A DNA stretch of 35,793 nucleotides from a candidate division WOR-3 bacterium (GCA_013177935.1 JABLXZ010000001.1:1-35793), one strand, 5' to 3'. Shown: positions 4,927-25,242, counted from the stretch's first letter. The notes: generated by a model from the letters alone, not told the origin. Numbers and translations are program-made.

Positions 4927-4944
4927 AAAACGGTATTTTTACCG
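4927..4944 (-). terminator. Short candidate terminator overlapping the stop codon of the 4939-6996 gene
   Basis: On the minus strand CGGTA (4944 to 4940), a four-A loop and TACCG (4935 to 4931) form a 5-bp stem followed by TTTT (4930 to 4927). The TAA stop of the upstream gene lies inside the hairpin. The stem is short, so efficiency would be low. Confidence 0.35.
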
Positions 4945-6996
4945 GTTAAGAAGGATGATTTTCGCCTGCTGTTTTTGCAATGCGTCTTTGACCGTTAAAA
5001 AATACACCCCGCGGGAAATTCGGTTATGCGTTAATCCAAGAAGGTTCAAGTTGATTGTCGGGATGCCGGTTGTGTTTTTTTGTAAAAGTCGCCTGCCCCC
5101 AGCATCGAATAAAGTTATAACCGTGTTCTGGTCTGGTTTTAATCCGGATATGGTAACAATACCGTTCGGGGATGGGTTGGGTTGAACCGCAAACGATGGG
5201 ATAATCAGGGGCGCTGGGTTTTCCTGGACGCCAACATTTCTCCACAGGACACCGAGAGAGACCTTAACAATGGTGTTTGAATAGTTGCTCTTTGTGGCGT
5301 AAGCCCAGACAAATGAGTCCGGGCAGGGAAAATCAGGTGTGTAGATATCAAGGTCGGCGAGGTCAGTCAGGACCGAAGATTGGGTAATGTTGCCTGAGCG
5401 GTCAATCTGGACAAGGAGGTTTTCGTTCCAGCCGCCGGAGAAAAGGAAGCGGTTCTGGTCACCGAGATAAGAGCAGGCACGCCAGGAGGCGATTGGACCG
5501 GGCAGGTAGCCCAACACCTGTTTCTGGTTAAGGTCAAGATGGTAGATGCGGTTTGAGCCGCCGACCGCAACCGCATAAAATGTCCCTTCTGCTCCCTGGT
5601 CAATGCCGGCAAACCAGACCCCGGGTTCAATCTGTTCGATATTCCAGGTGTCACCGGTGAATGCGCCATCCGGCGCATAGCGGGCGGCAATACAGCCGGT
5701 TTCTTCATGGGGAGAGTGTGTAATCCAGAAGCCCGGGTTTTGCCGGTCCCAAACGATACCCCAGATGATGTCGTCGCCAAAGAAGTTCTGGAGGTTGAAC
5801 TGTTCAAAGCGGAAGTTCAGCGGGTTGTCAACAGGAAAACTGATGATGCGGTTGGTGTCGTTAACCACGAGGTAAAATCGGCTGGAGTCAGGCACATAGG
5901 TGATACCGGCAAGGTTCATTCCCAGTCCGAGACCGCTCAGGTCCCAGGATGAGATGACCGTGCCAAATTCGGGAGGAAATGTGCTTACAACTCGGTAGAG
6001 TGTATCGTTTCGTCTGTGCTGGTCGTTAACCAGTTCGGTTTGAACAACAAATAGATAGGAGTCAGGGTTGGGTTCGGTTAAGAGGTCGCCAAAATAGCAA
6101 CGGCAGGTGTCACCGGTTCCGAGGCTGGTGATGGAATAGGTGCGTTGGAAAAGGGTGTCAAAAGGCGGACGGTTCCGAAACAAAATGGCGCGGGCGGTAA
6201 AGGTTTCGGTGTTTAAGCCGTAGTTTCTGATTGTGGCGAGAACCGGACACTGGCTGTTGGGTGGAAACCACGCTTCGGGAGAAATCAGACGTAAGACACC
6301 GACATCGTGCTCAAGCCGGCGCACAAAGAAGCGAATTGAGGTGCGGTCGGTGATGAGGTGCTGTGCCGGATTGCCGTTGTACAGGTACTGGAGGAAATAG
6401 TTGTTGGTGCCGTAATCTCCCTGGATGCCGATTGTGGCACTTACGGGATTTGCCGGAGTGTTAAGGTAGTTTAATTGAATTGTGCCATCGGACCCAAGCA
6501 CAACCTGCGCCGAGAGCGTTTCTGGCTGATTGTACAGGGTGACATTGTGCCAGGTGATAACTGTGGAACGGGTTGCAGGGTCGTGGTAATAGAAAACAGC
6601 ACCAGAATTTCCCGGGTTGAGGTCGTCCCAGAACAGGGCGATAAGATGACAGAATTGCGGCGCGGGCAGTTCCTGATTGTGGTAATTGGTGTAGGTGGTG
6701 GGGAATTGAAGAAAGCCGTTGGTGCAAACTGTTAATGAATCAAGGGTGTCGCCGTAAAAGGGAAAACGATAAGGCAAATGTATCGTTGCCCAGCCGTCAT
6801 CCGGATTCGGGTTCCAATTCGTAATCGGGTTGTGGCTTGCCGGGTCAATCCAGGAGAATGTTATACTGTCACCCGGCTCCTGAGTTGAATGGTAATAATA
6901 GCCGAACCCGTCTGGACCACCTTCGTCGGTCTGACCATATACCGGCAAGGAAAACAGAAGAAGCAAGAGTGCTGTCAACTTTTTAATCCCTTCCAT
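4939..6996 (-). CDS. Large secreted multi-domain protein with Por-type sorting domain
   Basis: This 685-residue protein has a clear signal peptide (MEGIKKLTALLLLLFSLPVYG). Residues 25-225 hold a nidogen-like beta domain: HLPYRFPFYGDTLDSLTVCTNGFLQF, then LIALFWDDLNPGNSGAVFYY and VVLGSDGTIQLNY. Residues 228-340 look like an Ig/CARDB-type beta-sandwich (DVGVLRLISPE... VLATIRNYG). Residues 345-590 resemble a beta-propeller with repeated FYLVVNDTNRIISF, FYAVAVGGSNRIYHLDL and RFLFSGGWNENLLVQID blades. The end (VQPNPSPNGIVTISGLKPDQ ... SRGVYFLTVKD ... KIILLNR) is a sorting domain. A surface or extracellular role is inferred; no catalytic motif is visible. A good promoter lies directly upstream. Confidence 0.85.
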   Translation of the reverse strand: MEGIKKLTALLLLLFSLPVYGQTDEGGPDGFGYYYHSTQEPGDSITFSWIDPASHNPITNWNPNPDDGWATIHLPYRFPFYGDTLDSLTVCTNGFLQFPTTYTNYHNQELPAPQFCHLIALFWDDLNPGNSGAVFYYHDPATRSTVITWHNVTLYNQPETLSAQVVLGSDGTIQLNYLNTPANPVSATIGIQGDYGTNNYFLQYLYNGNPAQHLITDRTSIRFFVRRLEHDVGVLRLISPEAWFPPNSQCPVLATIRNYGLNTETFTARAILFRNRPPFDTLFQRTYSITSLGTGDTCRCYFGDLLTEPNPDSYLFVVQTELVNDQHRRNDTLYRVVSTFPPEFGTVISSWDLSGLGLGMNLAGITYVPDSSRFYLVVNDTNRIISFPVDNPLNFRFEQFNLQNFFGDDIIWGIVWDRQNPGFWITHSPHEETGCIAARYAPDGAFTGDTWNIEQIEPGVWFAGIDQGAEGTFYAVAVGGSNRIYHLDLNQKQVLGYLPGPIASWRACSYLGDQNRFLFSGGWNENLLVQIDRSGNITQSSVLTDLADLDIYTPDFPCPDSFVWAYATKSNYSNTIVKVSLGVLWRNVGVQENPAPLIIPSFAVQPNPSPNGIVTISGLKPDQNTVITLFDAGGRRLLQKNTTGIPTINLNLLGLTHNRISRGVYFLTVKDALQKQQAKIILLNR

Positions 6997-7548: not shown

Positions 7549-10500
7549 ATGAAAAAAGTTAAGGTCAGAAAAAACACCGAGTTGCGATTGGGCCAGGTAA
7601 TTGACCACGATTCCCTCATACAACTTGCCGACCGGCTTGTTAAAGAAACAAAAGTCCTGCTTCAATATGCGAAAACTGAAGAGGACCTGAGAATTGGTTT
7701 TGAAAAATTATTGGAGCCTATCAAGGCCGATTTAAACCTTACCTTAACTACTCATTATGAAAAGTCTGTTTATAGAGGTCGTCCTGATGCACTTCATGGT
7801 CAGTTAGTAATTGAGTATGAACCACCCGGTGCGTTTAAATCCCGCACAAAAATCGACCACGCTTTTCTGCAATTGATTAATTACATCCAGGAACTGTCTA
7901 AGAAAGAGACCTTATTTTTATTTGATCCAAAGTATGTGGGCGTGGGCTTTGATGGAGAAAAAATCTTTTTTGTCCGGTATATCGGTGATAGAACAAAAGC
8001 CAAAGAACAATTTACACCCGAAGACTTTACAATACTCGGTCCTTATGAGTTTACTCCGGAGAGTGCCCGCACCTTCTTGATGTATCTTCGTGCATTAGCC
8101 CGCTTGCCCTTAAATGCGGAAAACCTTGCACAGAGGTTTGGACCGTCTAGCGAACTTGCCCCTAAAATGGTTTCCGCCCTTGTTAACGCCCTCAAACACT
8201 GGGGCGAACAGGAGCGCATTCGTACATTCTTCAACGAATGGAAAAGGTTGTTTGGCATTGTTTACGGAGAGGTGTTAACCAGTGGGGTGCAGGATAGAGA
8301 AATGCGGGCTTTGTCGGAGGTTTATAAGGTCAGAGAAGAAGTTGATTTTCAGGAACTTTTGTTTTGCGTTCACACCTATTTTGTCTTTTTGATGAAACTC
8401 ATCTCCGCCGAGATTCTGGTATTGAAAGAAACCAGTCTGGCTACTTCACTTGCCTTCCGTCTTGCCCATAGCTCTGACGATGAGTTGAAACGGGAACTTG
8501 AGGACATAGAGGATGGCGGGATATACGCTCGAAAGGGAATAACCAACTTTCTGGAAGGCGACTTCTTTCGCTGGTATCTTGATGCCTTTGACTCTCCGGA
8601 ATTAAAAGATGCCATCAGAGAGGTATCGCGTAGCCTTGCCGAATTTGAACCGGCAACCAGTTCGTTAGAACCCAGCGCAACCCGCGACCTATTAAAGAAA
8701 CTTTATCAGTATTTAGTGCCGCGCGAGGTGCGCCATCGGCTTGGCGAATATTACACCCCTGACTGGTTGGCTGAACTGTTGCTAAAAGAGGTCGGTTATG
8801 ATGGTAATAACTTTAAAAGGTTTTTAGACCCGGCGTGCGGTTCAGGGACATTTCTGGTGCTGGCGATTCAGAAGGCAATAGATTGGGGAAAGAAAAATAA
8901 AAGACCGCGGCTGGAAATAGCAAAAAGCATCGTTGCCAACATCTGGGGTTTTGACTTAAATCCACTTGCGGTTATCGCCGCCCGCACCAACTACCTTTTT
9001 GCCCTCGGCGATTTAGCCGATGAATTGACCGAGTTTGAAATACCAATCTATCTTGCCGACTCCATTCTTTGGCCCGAACATACTGGCATCAAGGGCGCAT
9101 TGAGAATGAACTTGTACGGTGAACAGATGCTGGTAAAAACTTCAGCCAGGGATTTCCATGTCCCTTTAATCTGGATAAAAGACAAAGGCTGTTTAATGAA
9201 AGAGGCGGCGCCTCTTATTGAAAAATTTGTCAAAAACGGGTTTGAACCAGAGGTTGCTTTAAAACACTTAAAAAAGAAAGGTCTGGTTTTTCCGCCCCAC
9301 GAAACATCGGTGGCTGAGTTCTATAATGAAATCCTGAAACTGGAAAAAGAAAGGAAGAACGGCATCTGGGCACGGTTTTTGAAGAATGTTTTTGCGCCGA
9401 TGGTTGCGGGCAAGTTTGACTTTGTCGTTGGCAATCCGCCCTGGGTGATGTGGCAATATCTTTCAAGAGAATACCGAGAGGCGACTAAAAATCTATGGGA
9501 TTCATACGGTTTATCAATTATAAAAGAATCAAAAGACAAGTTAAGTAAAGGCAAAAAAGATTTCTCAATGCTTTTTGTTTACGCATCAGCGGATTATTAC
9601 TTACAAGACGGGGGGAAATTGGGTTTTCTCATAACCCAGGAGGTGTTCAAATCAAAAGGAGCGGGTGAAGGATTCAGGCGATTTCGACTTGGAGAAGGTA
9701 AATATCTAAAAGTCTTAAAAGCCCATGATTTGGTTTCAATTCAGCCATTTGAAGGCGCGGCGAATAAAACCGCTGCCATTATTCTTAAAAAAGGCGAGAA
9801 AACAGAATATCCATTGCCATATTTTATTTGGACAAAGAAAAAAGGCGTTGGGAAAATTCCCACAGATAAATTATTAGATGAAGTTTTGAAATTGGTCTAT
9901 AGAAAAAGAATGTTAGCAAGGCCAATTAGTTCAGATGTTAGTGCTTGGCAATCTTTTGAGGTAGAGAATGTTTTTTCAAAAATTATCGGCACAAACCAGT
10001 ATAGAGCAAAAATTGGTGCAAGAACAGAACCTTATGGCATTTTTTGGATAAAAATTATGACTCTCACACAAGATGGAAATCTATTAATAAAAAATATTAC
10101 AGAAGGCCGAAGAAAGAAACAAATATTTGAAAAAGAAGCAAAAATAGAAAGTAATTTTATTTACCCATCTTTCAGAGGATCAGATATAAATAGGTGGAAT
10201 AGTTCAGTTGGGATCTATACTTTAATCCTTAATGACCCAGCGAATCCTAATAAACCCTTTAAAGAAGAAGACATGAAATTAAAATTTCCATTAACATATA
10301 ATTATTTGACACATTTTAAAACTAACCTTCTAGAAAGGGCGGCTTATAAAAAATTTCATTGCCAAGCAGGTAGACCTTTCTATACACAATTTAATATTTC
10401 AAGAGATACATTTATGAATTATAAAGTTGTATGGAAAAGAATGACCAATGATATTTTTGCTTGTGTATTATCACAAGTAAAAACCCCCTTTGGGTTCAAA

Positions 10501-10821
10501 ATGGCAATACCCCTGGATACAACATCATTTTTCGCCACTAACAATGAGGCTGAAGCCCATTATCTCTGTGCCATTGTAAACTCCACTCCCGTACGAGATT
10601 TTATTAAGTCTTTTTCTTCAGCGGGCAGGGGTTTTGGCACTCCTTCGGTTATGGAGCATATTGGAATCCCGAAGTTCGACCCGAAGAACCCCATTCACAA
10701 GAAACTTGCCGAAATCTCTAAAAGATGCCATCAACTCAAAGCCGAAGGCAAAGAAAATGAACTTTTGGTGTTAGAAAAGCAAAATGACGAGGCGGTAAAA
10801 GAACTGTTCGGGATTAAATAA
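7549..10821 (+). CDS. Single-polypeptide restriction-modification enzyme (Type IIG-like N6-adenine methylase with N-terminal nuclease-like domain)
   Basis: This 1090-residue protein probably methylates adenine in a specific DNA site and may cleave unmethylated DNA. Residues about 40-150 look like a PD-(D/E)xK-type domain: GRPD with Asp80, then VIEYE with Glu89 and Glu91. The usual catalytic Lys position is Glu here. A helical linker follows. The methylase part has LGEYYTPDWLAELLL near 400, SAM motif I DPACGSGTF (427-435), GFDLNPLAVIAARTNYL, and the catalytic NPPW (629-632). The C-terminal third is the probable target-recognition region, ending in the usual helical segment (IHKKLAEISKRCHQLK). 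No separate specificity or nuclease gene is nearby. Sampled 60-base blocks give about 18-25% GC in the recognition part (10081-10140, 10261-10320) against 52% at motif I. This suggests a swapped domain. Confidence 0.87.
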   Translation: MKKVKVRKNTELRLGQVIDHDSLIQLADRLVKETKVLLQYAKTEEDLRIGFEKLLEPIKADLNLTLTTHYEKSVYRGRPDALHGQLVIEYEPPGAFKSRTKIDHAFLQLINYIQELSKKETLFLFDPKYVGVGFDGEKIFFVRYIGDRTKAKEQFTPEDFTILGPYEFTPESARTFLMYLRALARLPLNAENLAQRFGPSSELAPKMVSALVNALKHWGEQERIRTFFNEWKRLFGIVYGEVLTSGVQDREMRALSEVYKVREEVDFQELLFCVHTYFVFLMKLISAEILVLKETSLATSLAFRLAHSSDDELKRELEDIEDGGIYARKGITNFLEGDFFRWYLDAFDSPELKDAIREVSRSLAEFEPATSSLEPSATRDLLKKLYQYLVPREVRHRLGEYYTPDWLAELLLKEVGYDGNNFKRFLDPACGSGTFLVLAIQKAIDWGKKNKRPRLEIAKSIVANIWGFDLNPLAVIAARTNYLFALGDLADELTEFEIPIYLADSILWPEHTGIKGALRMNLYGEQMLVKTSARDFHVPLIWIKDKGCLMKEAAPLIEKFVKNGFEPEVALKHLKKKGLVFPPHETSVAEFYNEILKLEKERKNGIWARFLKNVFAPMVAGKFDFVVGNPPWVMWQYLSREYREATKNLWDSYGLSIIKESKDKLSKGKKDFSMLFVYASADYYLQDGGKLGFLITQEVFKSKGAGEGFRRFRLGEGKYLKVLKAHDLVSIQPFEGAANKTAAIILKKGEKTEYPLPYFIWTKKKGVGKIPTDKLLDEVLKLVYRKRMLARPISSDVSAWQSFEVENVFSKIIGTNQYRAKIGARTEPYGIFWIKIMTLTQDGNLLIKNITEGRRKKQIFEKEAKIESNFIYPSFRGSDINRWNSSVGIYTLILNDPANPNKPFKEEDMKLKFPLTYNYLTHFKTNLLERAAYKKFHCQAGRPFYTQFNISRDTFMNYKVVWKRMTNDIFACVLSQVKTPFGFKMAIPLDTTSFFATNNEAEAHYLCAIVNSTPVRDFIKSFSSAGRGFGTPSVMEHIGIPKFDPKNPIHKKLAEISKRCHQLKAEGKENELLVLEKQNDEAVKELFGIK

Positions 10822-10832
10822 GAATCTGTTTT

Positions 10833-11975
10833 TCAGTAGCCCCAGCGTCGGGTACGTTTTGCCCAGGTCTCTTTATAGGCAATGGTGAGCATTAACCGCG
10901 CCGAGGTCTCTTTCAATAAGCCGGATGGGGTCTGGCTTGTGCGGAAGCGGATTTCGGTGCCGATATCAATGTTGCCGAACTTCGGGACTGGAAATCCGGT
11001 GCCAAGGTGGAGGGTTTTTTCTTGTATTGGCTGGTTTGTGGCGGAGTTCAGGCAGTACCAGTTGGTCATTGAATAACCGAGGCGTAATGGGTGGTCGGGC
11101 AGAAGTTCATACTCAATGCCGAATGAGGGCCGGAAAACAGAACGGTAGTTTGCCGGTATGTTGTTGATTGTCGCCTTGTCATAGGGTCGCATCTCCAGAC
11201 CAAGGGTAAACTGGTTGATTTGCCAGATGGGTCCAATTGCGGCACCGAGGTTCACAGTTGCCGGGAGTTTGATTTGATAGGTGCGGAAGGTGTCGGTGAT
11301 GACACCGTGGATAAGTTTCCAGCGCTGGGCATTAAGGTTAAGAGGCAGGTCGTAACTAAGGGCAAGGGTAACCGGGTTAAACTGGAGCGAGGCGCCGAAC
11401 CGGGCGTTGAAAGCAGAGTAGTCAATTGCGATTGTGTCGGTGGCGATGGTGCCTTCCGGAGTGATGTAACTCCAGTTTTCCCGAACACCGCCAAGATGGG
11501 GACGGAGGTAGAACCCGAGGCAGAAGTGACTTAAGAACGATTGCGCGATGCCAGCGCTCAGTGCATAAATGCCACCGTGGCTCTGGATGTGGTGGCGAGA
11601 CAGGGTGTCGGATAAGGATTCAGACCAGACATCAAAATCCTGGTTGAAAATCTCGTCAACCGCCACAAGGATTCGGGTGCGGGTGGGCAGGGGAACCGCA
11701 CCGTAAAATGTTGCTGGACGAACACCAGCAAGGGCTCGGGTCATTGTTGCCTGTTGGCCAACTGTGCCGATGCCGAGCAAGGTCATTTCTAATGAGGTCT
11801 GAGTGAGGTGGATGAAGTTTCCGGGGTTGCCTGAGGAAAGTGCAACCGGGTTGCCAAGCGCAGCGCTTTGAGCGGTGGCGCTGTATGCCGGTTCGCCCAG
11901 CCCGTTCATATTGAAGAAGGATTGGGCAAAGGTCAAAGACAGGGAAATCAGTAGTAAGATTGATATCTTGTTCAT
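10833..11975 (-). CDS. Outer-membrane beta-barrel protein (PorV/FadL-like)
   Basis: This 380-residue protein has a signal peptide ending near FAQSFF. Its opening, GLGEPAYSATAQSAALGNPVALSSGNPGNFIHL, resembles the start of PorV/PorQ-type and FadL-like barrels. The rest alternates short amphipathic strands and turns (FCLGFYLRPHLGG, VTLALSYDLPLNL, FTLGLEMRPYDK, LRLGYSMTNWY, IDIGTEIRFR), as expected for a transmembrane beta-barrel. Its ATG overlaps the stop of the upstream lipoprotein gene by 4 bases (ATGA), so the two products are probably made together. It lies at the end of the rpmF-plsX operon. Function in transport, secretion or anchoring of sorted proteins is inference only. Confidence 0.7.
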   Translation of the reverse strand: MNKISILLLISLSLTFAQSFFNMNGLGEPAYSATAQSAALGNPVALSSGNPGNFIHLTQTSLEMTLLGIGTVGQQATMTRALAGVRPATFYGAVPLPTRTRILVAVDEIFNQDFDVWSESLSDTLSRHHIQSHGGIYALSAGIAQSFLSHFCLGFYLRPHLGGVRENWSYITPEGTIATDTIAIDYSAFNARFGASLQFNPVTLALSYDLPLNLNAQRWKLIHGVITDTFRTYQIKLPATVNLGAAIGPIWQINQFTLGLEMRPYDKATINNIPANYRSVFRPSFGIEYELLPDHPLRLGYSMTNWYCLNSATNQPIQEKTLHLGTGFPVPKFGNIDIGTEIRFRTSQTPSGLLKETSARLMLTIAYKETWAKRTRRWGY

Positions 11976-21230: not shown

Positions 21231-24056
21231 ATGCGGAAACGCCATTTCGCTCAGAAAGTTGTTTTTGTTAGTATCTTCGCGCTTTTGAGCATTTGCTTTG
21301 CCCAGTTCACTTATTTCGGGAAAAACAAAGTTCAAACCCGGGATTACCAGTTCCAGAGTTTTGAAACAGAACATTTTAAGATTCTTTTTTATCCCGGGGG
21401 CGAAGGTCTTGCTGAGTTTGCCGCCCGGGCTGCAGAGGACTTTTACGCAAAGTTAAGCCAGGACCTCAATACTGAACTGGAGTCCAAGGTGCCGATTATT
21501 ATTTACCTTTCGCCCGGGCAGTTTAGCGAGACCAATGTTATCACCGATTTGCTTGATGAAGGGGTGGGCGGTTTTTCGGAATTAATCAGAAATCGCATTG
21601 TTGTTCCTTTTAACGGCTCTTACAGCGATTTCTATCATGTAATTGGGCACGAACTTACCCATATTTTTGAATTTCAGATGTTCTACCGTTCAAAATTAGC
21701 GGTGCTGCTTGGTGCAATAAATGAGTTCCAGGTGCCGCTCTGGATTATGGAAGGCTTTGCCGAGTTCCAGTCCGGCTGGGTAACGGTAAACTCGGAGATT
21801 TTTATGCGGGATTTAGTGCTTCACGGACGCCTCGTTTCTCTGGTGGAGTTGAACGACAATTATGGGTATCTTGCCTATCGGGAGGGAGAGTCGTTTTTTC
21901 GTTATGTGGCAGAGCGCTATGGTCGCGAAAAGGTTTACGAGTTTATGAATACATTGCGCAGTAAAAAGAGCCTTGAAGCGACCTTTCAGGCGGTTTTTGG
22001 GTTGAGCCAGAAAAAAATCGGGGAGGAGTGGGAGAAGTGGCTCAAGATGCGCTACTGGCCTCAGGTTGTGAAGTTGGCGAACTTTGACCGGATTGCAGAG
22101 CGTTTGACCGACCATAAGCAGGACGGTTCGGTCTACAATACCGCACCGGCAATTTCACCCAGCGGGACAAAAATTGCGATGGTTTCGGACCGGGCAGAAT
22201 ATGTTGACCTGTACTTGCTCTCGGCGCTTAATGGTCAAATAATAAAACGTTTGGTGCGGGGCGGGCGTTCCGGTGGATTTGAAGGGTTGCATTTAATGCG
22301 TCCTGGTGTTGCCTGGTCGCCAGATGAGAAACTTCTCGCACTTGTAGCCACAGCAAAAGGGAAGGACAACATCACACTAATCGATGTTGACAATGGCAGG
22401 GTGGTGCGGCGCATTTCGGGTAATCTTGACGCAATTTACACCCCGCAGTTTTCGCCCGATGGTAAACGGCTGGTCTTTGTTGGTGTGAAAAATGGTTTCA
22501 GTGATATCTATGTGGTTGAGACTAGAGGGGGAACCCCACAAAGACTTACTTACGATATGTTTGAAGATAAGGACCCGGCATTTTCTCCTTCCGGAGATAC
22601 AATTGTGTTTGTTTCGGACCGTCCGGAACCGGGTGTTGATTGGGTTCCGGGAAAGTATGCGGTGTGGTTAAGGACCCAAAAAGGGGAGATGATGCGAATC
22701 ACAACCCAGAGCGGTTTTTACGGTTATCCGGTGTTTGCCAATTCGGGCGAGTATCTGTTCTGGGTTGCCGCAGACTCTTCATCGCAAAACATCTGCGTTT
22801 ACTCTCTGAAAGAGGGCCGGGTTGTGCGGCGCACCGATTTTTTAGGCGAGGTTTCCTATCTCTCACTTTCCCGAAATGACCGAAAACTCACCTTTGCCTA
22901 CTTTTCTGATGTGGGCTGGGATGTGGCATTGATATTGGACCCGCTGGAGAAGATTCCAGTAGATACGCTGGAGAAAATTGGGGCGGTTGATACGGTGCGC
23001 TTCACAAGAAGTGGGTTAGACTTTGCAAGGGTAAAACCGGTTGGTTTTAGTCTGGCACTGGATTATGTTGCCGGTGCTGCCTCTTATAGTAGCGGAGCCG
23101 GAGGCGGGTTTGCCGGTACGGTTTACCTGGAAATGAGTGACATTTTGGGTGACCATCGGTTTGCGATTTACACCGACCTTTACGGCGACATTTTAAACTC
23201 CAACCTGATTCTTCAATACTGGTTTTTGCGCAATCGGATTGATTATGGGTTTACTTTGTTCCAGCTTTTTGATGTACCCTATTATGACCCGGGGTATCTT
23301 GCGGTTGAGAGGGTGAATCGGGGCGGCGGAGCGATTGCCAGTTATCCCCTGGACCGGTTTACAAGATTTGAGGCAGGAATTTTAGGAACAGAGAGCGAAA
23401 TCGGGGTGTGGGTTTATGATGAAAACTGGTATCAACTCGAACGTTTTCAGGAGTGGCTGTTTTATGGCAGCGGTGCGTTTGTGTTTGATAATACCTACTG
23501 GCCCGACGAGTTTGGTCCGGTTCGGGGGGTGCGTACCAGGCTTGAAGCCGGGGCATCGGTACCGGGCATATCCAGCCGCCGGTATCAGATGGTAATCGGT
23601 GATTTTCGCCACTATCTGCGGTTGGGTCGGAGGTTTGTTTTTGCCAGTCGGGTTGCCAGTGCAATGGGTTTTGGAGAGTCAGACTCTTTTTATCTTGGGG
23701 GCGAAGATGTACGCGGTTACAACTGGGGTGAATTTTACGAGCAGCAGGGTGCGGGAATTGGACTGTTTAATCTCGAGTTGCGTTATCCGTTTATTGACCG
23801 GTTGAAAATCGCTTTTCCTTTGCCGATAGATATTCGCGGTATCAGGGGTGTGGCATTTCTTGATGGTGGAGTGATTTTCCGGGACAGTATGCGCATCTGG
23901 GATGGGCAGCGGTTAAAAGACCTGAAACTCGGGGTGGGGGCAGGTTTGCGGATTCCTGTTTGGTTTTTCTATCTCAAACTGGATTTTGCCAAACCGCTGT
24001 CGGTAACCGAAGATAAAAGTTGGAAGTTTATGTTTGAACTTGGCTACGATTTCTAA
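21231..24056 (+). CDS. Surface metalloprotease fused to TolB-like propeller and Omp85-type outer-membrane barrel
   Basis: This 941-residue protein has three modules. After a signal peptide (ends near CFAQF), residues 45-280 form a gluzincin (peptidase MA-like) domain with HELTH (140-144) and a downstream WIMEGFAEF whose Glu174 is the probable third zinc ligand. Residues about 300-600 carry PD40/TolB-like propeller repeats such as ISPSGTKIAMVSDR, FSPDGKRLVFVGV and FSPSGDTIVFVSDR. The last 320 or so residues are rich in amphipathic strands and end with FDGG-like FLDGGVIFRD, LKLGVGAGLRIPVWFFYLKLDFAKP and a terminal Phe, as in Omp85/surface-antigen barrels. A catalytic module tethered to the outer membrane is inferred. 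There is no Shine-Dalgarno; TCTAAT lies 7 bases before the ATG. It overlaps the next gene by 23 bases. Confidence 0.83.
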   Translation: MRKRHFAQKVVFVSIFALLSICFAQFTYFGKNKVQTRDYQFQSFETEHFKILFYPGGEGLAEFAARAAEDFYAKLSQDLNTELESKVPIIIYLSPGQFSETNVITDLLDEGVGGFSELIRNRIVVPFNGSYSDFYHVIGHELTHIFEFQMFYRSKLAVLLGAINEFQVPLWIMEGFAEFQSGWVTVNSEIFMRDLVLHGRLVSLVELNDNYGYLAYREGESFFRYVAERYGREKVYEFMNTLRSKKSLEATFQAVFGLSQKKIGEEWEKWLKMRYWPQVVKLANFDRIAERLTDHKQDGSVYNTAPAISPSGTKIAMVSDRAEYVDLYLLSALNGQIIKRLVRGGRSGGFEGLHLMRPGVAWSPDEKLLALVATAKGKDNITLIDVDNGRVVRRISGNLDAIYTPQFSPDGKRLVFVGVKNGFSDIYVVETRGGTPQRLTYDMFEDKDPAFSPSGDTIVFVSDRPEPGVDWVPGKYAVWLRTQKGEMMRITTQSGFYGYPVFANSGEYLFWVAADSSSQNICVYSLKEGRVVRRTDFLGEVSYLSLSRNDRKLTFAYFSDVGWDVALILDPLEKIPVDTLEKIGAVDTVRFTRSGLDFARVKPVGFSLALDYVAGAASYSSGAGGGFAGTVYLEMSDILGDHRFAIYTDLYGDILNSNLILQYWFLRNRIDYGFTLFQLFDVPYYDPGYLAVERVNRGGGAIASYPLDRFTRFEAGILGTESEIGVWVYDENWYQLERFQEWLFYGSGAFVFDNTYWPDEFGPVRGVRTRLEAGASVPGISSRRYQMVIGDFRHYLRLGRRFVFASRVASAMGFGESDSFYLGGEDVRGYNWGEFYEQQGAGIGLFNLELRYPFIDRLKIAFPLPIDIRGIRGVAFLDGGVIFRDSMRIWDGQRLKDLKLGVGAGLRIPVWFFYLKLDFAKPLSVTEDKSWKFMFELGYDF

Positions 24057-25242
24057 CAAGCGCCTACTATTTGGAATTGTTGCCCTTTTTCTGGGGTGTA
24101 GCCCAAAGTTTGTAGGACCACCTATTGACCCCGAGCGGGTGGATAAAGACATCTGGAAAAGTCTCAATCGGCTCAATTCCTTCCGTTTCTCACTTTATTA
24201 TTATACTGATTGGCCCACAAACATATCTGCACGCTTTTCCGGTGGATACAATAGTCCAGATAAGGAGAAATGGGATGGTTATCTGGAACGAGAAGAATAC
24301 AGAAAAATGGTCCGAATCAGGGCAAGAGACGATTGGCAGTTTGTTCAGGAGGGTAAAGGCTGGTTTAAGATGCCCAGGGGTGTAGAGTCGAGAATTTTCG
24401 ACCAGATTGAGCATGTGTTACACAACGCTCAACTGGAGTTCATTGGGTTGGAAAAGGGGCGTTATCGGTATCGATTTAAGCCCAATCTTCCACTTCTTGA
24501 CCTGCCCGGATTAAAACAGATTGTTGGGGTTCTTGAGATAGATGCTAAATCAGGTTTACCGTTGCGGATTTATTGTTATGCCGAAGACAAAAGTGCCGTA
24601 TGGGATATGAGGTTTGAACGGTTTAATCGCACGGGCAGGATAAAATTTCCTTTTGTTCCAGCCGTGAGTGTAATTCTTGATGCCGCGGCGGCAAAAGGGA
24701 TTTTTAAAATAAACAGGGCGAAGTCGATTATCCGCAATCGATTAAAGTTTCTCGGGGTTGAATCTCAAATTAAGTCGTTAGATTTTTTATCATGCGATAA
24801 ATTTGAGGTGTTAATTGACCGCAACTTCTCCAATCCCACATTGAGACTGTTGTTTGGTATGGGACGGGTAGAAGTCTGGGATGCGGTATGGGCGGACAGT
24901 TTAGATTTTTCCGGTAAATCACTACCGGTTGCCGGCGACGCATCGAAGCGAGTTGTACTAAAAACATTACTGGCAAGTAATCAACAGTTGAAAGCCGAGC
25001 CGGTGCTTGACCTGCCGGTTGGAGCGCGGTTAAAGACGACAGTTCTTGCTGGACAAAGTAAGAGCAAGGGGTTAACGGTTCTGGTCCTGGATGGAGCGGT
25101 GCTGGGAATCGGGGTCTGGGAGGATGCCGAAATGTGTAGTTTCGCGGACATCGGGGGAGATGAGATAGTACGGGTCGTGGCGGCTCTGGCTTCGCAAGAA
25201 CCATTACCGTTTGGGTTTCAGGTTAACGTTCGGAACAATTAG
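24034..25242 (+). CDS. Lipoprotein with a C-terminal SecD-P1-like domain
   Basis: This 402-residue protein probably starts at a TTG (24034) with GGAAG 7 bases upstream, inside the end of the preceding gene. The signal is RLLFGIVALFLGC with lipobox LFLGC, lipid anchor at Cys22. Residues 40-210 form a beta-rich domain resembling LolA/LppX-type lipoprotein carriers (WDGYLEREEYRKMVRIR ... GVLEIDAKSGLPLRIYCY). Residues about 228-400 look like the periplasmic P1 region of SecD: RAKSIIRNRLKFLGVES matches the SecD pattern A..IIRNR...LGV. DKFEVLID matches DRIVVQL, GLTVLVLDGAVLGIGV matches RLAIVLDGKV.SAPV, and VVAALASQEPLPFGFQV matches L...LRSGALPAPL. No transmembrane SecD part is present. Translational coupling to the metalloprotease barrel suggests joint action. 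Confidence 0.66.
   Translation: MNLATISNKRLLFGIVALFLGCSPKFVGPPIDPERVDKDIWKSLNRLNSFRFSLYYYTDWPTNISARFSGGYNSPDKEKWDGYLEREEYRKMVRIRARDDWQFVQEGKGWFKMPRGVESRIFDQIEHVLHNAQLEFIGLEKGRYRYRFKPNLPLLDLPGLKQIVGVLEIDAKSGLPLRIYCYAEDKSAVWDMRFERFNRTGRIKFPFVPAVSVILDAAAAKGIFKINRAKSIIRNRLKFLGVESQIKSLDFLSCDKFEVLIDRNFSNPTLRLLFGMGRVEVWDAVWADSLDFSGKSLPVAGDASKRVVLKTLLASNQQLKAEPVLDLPVGARLKTTVLAGQSKSKGLTVLVLDGAVLGIGVWEDAEMCSFADIGGDEIVRVVAALASQEPLPFGFQVNVRNN

Follow-up and report, generated by a model that had tools for sequence, protein, structure and literature searches.

In the present study, we analyzed a 35,793-nucleotide stretch of DNA from a candidate division WOR-3 bacterium (GCA_013177935.1, JABLXZ010000001.1:1-35793; hereafter, the window) and found that the gene at positions 24034-25242 encodes a predicted lipoprotein in which a LolA/LprG/LppX-type domain is followed by the P1 domain of SecD, without the SecD motor. 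Relatives of this lipoprotein were found across WOR-3, and their genes are frequently linked to the gene of PorU, the sortase of the type IX secretion system (T9SS). The gene and its parts are as follows.

24034..25242, + strand: gene of the LprG/LolA-fold and SecD-P1 lipoprotein, 402 amino acids, TTG start
24022..24026, + strand: Shine-Dalgarno-like GGAAG, 7 bases 5' of the TTG, read from sequence
24034..24099, + strand: lipoprotein signal peptide and lipobox LFLGC with Cys22, from sequence and homologue conservation
24130..24645, + strand: LolA/LprG/LppX-fold domain, residues about 33-204, from the AlphaFold 2 model and Foldseek
24646..25239, + strand: SecD-P1-like domain (base and head), residues 205-402, from AlphaFold 2, Foldseek, profiles and the homologues L062 and L066

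The open reading frame starts with the TTG at 24034, its stop codon ends at 25242, and it encodes 402 residues; the frame and the SecD-type motifs cited in a first-pass annotation of the window were both present as described there. Of 34 diverse homologues, 90% or more retained Cys22 of the lipobox. Because open-frame homologues were found phylum-wide and this cysteine is retained among them, the frame is, judged from sequence conservation, a real gene, and the lipobox predicts that its product is a lipid-anchored envelope protein. The signal peptide was the sole hydrophobic stretch of the protein, which ends directly after P1. A check of the 402-residue sequence revealed none of the six transmembrane helices of SecD, its proton pathway, or a SecF partner, in agreement with the annotated absence of SecD membrane helices.

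To identify the second half, we combined profile, homologue, and fold comparisons. When the lipoprotein was searched as a single sequence against Pfam and NCBIfam, no family match was obtained; thus, a SecD identity could not be claimed from one sequence. A hidden Markov model (HMM) of the whole protein, built from 22 relatives, was then compared with 177,635 distinct PDB sequences using hmmsearch. The only convincing match was 3aqo_A, the crystal structure of T. thermophilus SecDF P1 (E=2.6e-4), which was colinear with the profile across positions 220-399. With an HMM of the C-terminal half (32 relatives), PDB matches 1-5 were all SecD or SecDF, E. coli SecD among them, with E-values from 3.9e-14 (3aqo_A) to 2.9e-6. 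The AlphaFold 2 model of residues 205-402 had a predicted local distance difference test score (pLDDT) of 92.8 and a predicted TM-score of 0.88. It yielded eight Foldseek matches with E<1e-3, all of them SecDF chains, with a query TM-score of 0.59-0.66 in seven and 0.36 in the other; the next match, a viral 3C protease, had a TM-score of 0.19. Two distant members, L062 and L066, scored 69.1 and 61.6 bits against SecDF_P1_head (PF22599), above its gathering cut-off of 27. The more SecD-like L062 homologue (L062:2801-4213, - strand) additionally matched TIGR01129 secD (E=1.7e-17, under the cut-off of that model). The family alignment revealed that both retain the full P1 head, through '..GPLPVDL' and '..GPLPHPL', and that L066 retains an 'LDLKGGM' stretch, which we take to resemble SecD motif D1. 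The helix with the invariant Arg (IIRNRL) was conserved in the P1 half, as in SecD. In the family of the window's lipoprotein the P1 head is eroded, which accounts for the failure of the single-sequence searches.

These results rest on independent profile, homologue, and fold evidence, and with the family profile the second half can be firmly identified as a SecD P1 domain. The SecD-P1-like fold claimed in the first-pass annotation was therefore confirmed by both the structure model and the profile searches. The annotated placement in the C-terminal half was also correct, but the SecD-like part starts earlier than residue 228, at about residue 205, its first base strand spanning residues 211-216. 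It is extremely improbable that the resemblance to SecD arose by chance or convergence. Such an origin would fit the empty single-sequence searches and the weak hhalign score against the genome's own single SecD (probability 3.7% and 18%; the target was one sequence without a profile, and this score was not weighed against SecD); it was rejected on the basis of the PDB profile matches, the Pfam passes of L062 and L066, and the Foldseek results, all of which indicated SecD P1.

The lipoprotein is not a SecD itself but a carrier of SecD's P1 domain without the motor, since the genome encodes a complete SecD with an adjacent SecF (L031) apart from the lipoprotein gene, and the lipoprotein has no membrane helices beyond its signal. 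The intact SecD and SecF also led us to discard the idea of a degenerate or split SecD. In 142 of the 147 WOR-3 genomes, a SecDF_P1_head match over the cut-off was observed, and almost all of these matches lay in open frames of SecD size. A second type of short frame (357-359 residues) with a partial SecDF_P1_head match, distinct from both SecD and the lipoprotein family, was observed by profile search in genus g3:

G016:C11:18333-18521: short frame with partial SecDF_P1_head match
G017:C415:11436-11618: short frame with partial SecDF_P1_head match

The first half was assigned by structure. The full-length AlphaFold model (pLDDT 87.5) was searched with Foldseek, and its first half matched LprG (3mha_B, TMt up to 0.63), LprF, LolA, and LolB, the top matches being LprG with bound phosphatidylinositol mannoside (PIM) or triacylglyceride. 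RseB and MucB were also among the matches, with a poor superposition (root-mean-square deviation mostly 18-24 Å, TM 0.23-0.28). A Pfam scan of 22 members gave no match apart from a weak one to MucB_RseB in a single member (E=0.14). These results indicated that the half-barrel fold of the LolA/LprG/LppX superfamily is present in the first half, as the first-pass annotation had proposed, and the domain anatomy of the lipoprotein, a LolA/LprG/LppX-type domain followed by SecD P1, is secure. The mean pairwise identity was higher in the first half (25%) than in P1 (18%), so the first half is the more strongly constrained.

Homologues within the lipoprotein's own genus and family shared 31-68% identity, and further homologues were found across WOR-3. 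A wider profile gave 127 positive genomes, some of them through ordinary SecD (frames of roughly 510-550 residues, matched around positions 319-396). After removal of these plain SecD matches, the lipoprotein family was counted in about 84 of the 147 genomes, which suggests an accessory rather than a core part of the T9SS. Outside WOR-3, a pattern search of genome contigs gave no relative of the lipoprotein, a search too insensitive to exclude one.

The linked sortase is PorU (Peptidase_C25; NF033707). Among the 80 genomes in which the family was first found, PorU was encoded within 5 kb of the lipoprotein gene in 55, at a distance of 0.7-3.7 kb. Four further genomes with the linkage (G123, G124, G125, and G129) were recognized by reading the wider-profile matches against the PorU matches. 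By our own arithmetic, with genomes of about 2 Mb and some four listed PorU-type matches in each, chance would place a gene within 5 kb of PorU in a few percent of genomes only. Gene maps showed a PorU-type neighbour at 29 loci, each time downstream and on the same strand. The conserved order was a metalloprotease-propeller-Omp85 gene, the lipoprotein gene, and porU. In many lineages, a family-2 membrane glycosyltransferase gene separates the last two, and its product may synthesize the glycan or lipid that anchors T9SS cargo; in one lineage, a patatin-like phospholipase gene lies there:

L083:6056-7531, + strand, and equivalents: family-2 membrane glycosyltransferase, between the lipoprotein and PorU genes
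L070:2222-3115, - strand: patatin-like phospholipase, between the lipoprotein and PorU genes

The PorU genes of the window's own genome were mapped as follows.

C1:432864-435992: own-genome PorU paralogue 1, with an adjacent PorV-family gene
C2:384457-387573: own-genome PorU paralogue 2

The C1 PorU shared 54% and 48% identity with the lipoprotein-linked PorU of two sister genera, and the other own copy shared 38%. From these identities, the C1 copy is taken as the orthologue of the linked PorU, about 400 kb from the lipoprotein gene, this PorU having been relocated in the window's genus. In genomes without the lipoprotein family, no equivalent lipoprotein was found among the inspected neighbours upstream of PorU; these were, judged by their sequences, a PHP-like hydrolase or a chromate-transporter-like protein.

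The gene preceding the lipoprotein gene in the window is the following conserved neighbour.

21231..24056, + strand: Peptidase_MA_2 metalloprotease, PD40/TolB-like propeller, and Omp85 barrel, 941 amino acids, from Pfam

The lipoprotein gene starts within this gene, and the overlap of 23 bases points to translational coupling. A metalloprotease-propeller-Omp85 gene was adjacent at 24 of 30 loci in one set and at 18 of 40 in a second set, which over-samples distant lineages; it is a probable operon partner. The first-pass annotation had raised the question of whether the same fusion occurs in related genomes and always follows the metalloprotease-barrel gene. The fusion was found in them, but by the above counts it does not always follow that gene. 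The linkage to PorU, which had gone unnoticed in that annotation, was stronger than the link to the barrel gene.

We propose that the lipoprotein is an accessory periplasmic part of the WOR-3 T9SS, or outer-membrane export pathway, that handles unfolded cargo, and we give this reading a probability of roughly 0.47. In this proposal, the lipoprotein would sit in the periplasm on its membrane anchor, and its P1 domain would bind unfolded segments of proteins exported by Sec, such as T9SS cargo, PorU, or the Omp85 partner, and hand these on to the machinery of the outer membrane. Docking to a lipid or lipid-linked partner, or sensing of it, would fall to the LprG-like domain. Because it has no proton channel, the lipoprotein should be unable to pump by itself; it would serve passively, as a holdase or adaptor, or depend on another motor to move it. 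Previous studies have reported that the P1 domain of SecD helps precursor transport (PMC9508474) and that the periplasmic domains of SecDF contact the beta-barrel assembly machinery (BAM) complex in E. coli (review PMC8669966). In Flavobacterium johnsoniae, the extended T9SS translocon includes the lipoprotein SprE together with SkpA, a co-opted chaperone of the periplasm (PMC10994853), which offers a precedent for the pairing of a lipoprotein with a recruited chaperone in a T9SS. The conserved linkage to the sortase PorU lends independent support to the putative holdase role for sorted proteins suggested in the first-pass annotation, an interpretation that is partly supported overall. More tentatively, the WOR-3 branch of the T9SS may have cut SecD P1 from its proton motor, anchored it to lipid, and fused it to a lipid-shuttle domain, giving a dedicated factor for handover from Sec (or from the anchor lipid) to PorU/SprA that is not described for the Bacteroidota T9SS.

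Several observations weigh against the proposed T9SS role. The lipoprotein is not present wherever the T9SS is, SprA being found in 145 of the 147 genomes, and about 63 genomes had no detectable copy, nearly all of them carrying T9SS genes. In the window's own genus, porU does not lie beside the lipoprotein gene. Most lineages have an eroded SecD head, just two members passing the SecDF_P1_head cut-off, and the higher conservation of the lipid-binding-type half suggests that this half may be the main functional part. The main rival explanation, which we regard as unlikely, builds on that half: the LprG-like domain would carry a lipid or glycolipid used by PorU to the outer membrane, the neighbouring glycosyltransferase would make that lipid, and P1 would be a docking module. 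The lipid-loaded LprG structures among the top matches, the better conserved first half, and the glycosyltransferase (in one lineage, the patatin-type lipase) between the lipoprotein and PorU genes are consistent with this explanation, as is the attachment of T9SS cargo to anionic lipopolysaccharide (A-LPS) in P. gingivalis, according to published abstracts. However, the LolA/LprG fold serves many ligands, including lipoproteins and, in RseB, signalling; the locus in the window's own family has no glycosyltransferase; and the recruitment of a SecD P1 domain is left unexplained.

A further explanation is that the lipoprotein is a partner of the metalloprotease-propeller-Omp85 protein in outer-membrane insertion, for assembly or quality control in the manner of BAM or the translocation and assembly module (TAM), with the PorU linkage incidental. 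The gene overlap, the adjacency of the upstream gene in many lineages, and the contact of SecDF with BAM (PMC8669966) would agree with this; however, lineages f6, f9, f16, and f32 keep PorU adjacent while the barrel gene is not, and we consider this explanation improbable. Much less probable still is an envelope-stress sensor like RseB/MucB, which would bind lipids and misfolded outer-membrane proteins and signal to an inner-membrane anti-sigma factor. RseB, which likewise joins a LolA-like N-domain to a C-domain, and MucB appeared among the whole-model matches, but they superposed poorly, and the C-terminal half searched alone matched SecDF only and not the C-terminal domain of RseB. No sigma or anti-sigma gene was found among the annotated neighbours at the examined loci, where not every neighbouring frame is annotated.

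The T9SS itself appears to be phylum-wide in WOR-3, a little-known phylum that includes the cultured strain sy37 (PMC12285271). PorU-type proteins were found in 147 of 147 genomes, and the window's own genome gave 11 PorV-family matches, nine of them above the cut-off. For GldM, the motor protein of the T9SS, no match was obtained in any genome, controls included. No literature on a T9SS in WOR-3 was found among open-access papers, and a 2020 review describes the system as specific to Bacteroidetes (PMC7463736); given that statement, its presence throughout WOR-3 is worth recording. Two genes in the window encode proteins with a C-terminal sorting domain:

223-1593, - strand: protein with a C-terminal T9SS type A sorting domain (TIGR04183)
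4939-6996, - strand: larger protein with a T9SS type A sorting domain (TIGR04183) and a NIDO domain

Elsewhere in the window, positions 10833-11975 (- strand) encode a 380-residue protein like BamG, a BAM subunit of Bacteroidota (NF053685, E=4.6e-17, under the curated cut-off), which suggests a Bacteroidota-like BAM complex in WOR-3. Positions 7549-10821 (+ strand) encode a 1090-residue, type IIG-like restriction-modification methylase of the Eco57I/N6_Mtase type.

Two steps of the T9SS are poorly understood: the maintenance of cargo in an unfolded state on its way from Sec to the SprA channel, and the delivery of the anchor lipid to PorU. A conserved, PorU-linked lipoprotein that combines a preprotein-handling domain with a lipid-carrier fold is a concrete candidate for either. 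The finding also shows that SecD P1 can work, or at least stay under selection, away from the proton motor, and a P1 without a motor bears on the question of whether P1 is itself a chaperone or a lever only. The fusion of a LolA/LprG-type domain with SecD P1 is apparently undescribed in open-access papers (subscription papers and preprints were not covered), consistent with the first-pass annotation, which knew of no system with this layout; the component domains are known, and the genomic association points to the T9SS.

Compared with SecD P1 of T. thermophilus SecDF (3aqo/5yhf) and D. radiodurans SecDF (5xan), the second half has the same fold with colinear base and head. Both have the invariant-Arg helix, and the distant lipoprotein members end the full head at '..PLPVDL'. 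Unlike SecD, the lipoprotein has no transmembrane helices, proton channel, or SecF partner; it is predicted to be lipid-anchored, its P1 stands behind a LolA/LprG-type domain, and the head has diverged in the window's family. The first half (residues about 33-204) shares its half-barrel fold with LprG/LppX/LprF, LolA/LolB, and RseB/MucB, whereas it lacks profile-level membership in the LolA-like superfamily and adds a second, SecD-derived domain. The upstream Omp85-peptidase MA-TolB propeller protein is a conserved neighbour but a separate, non-homologous outer-membrane protein. With the lipoprotein SprE/PorW and the chaperone SkpA of the Bacteroidota T9SS, a functional analogy facing the periplasm is possible, although the folds are unrelated, the phylum differs, and the association of the WOR-3 lipoprotein with the T9SS is genomic only.

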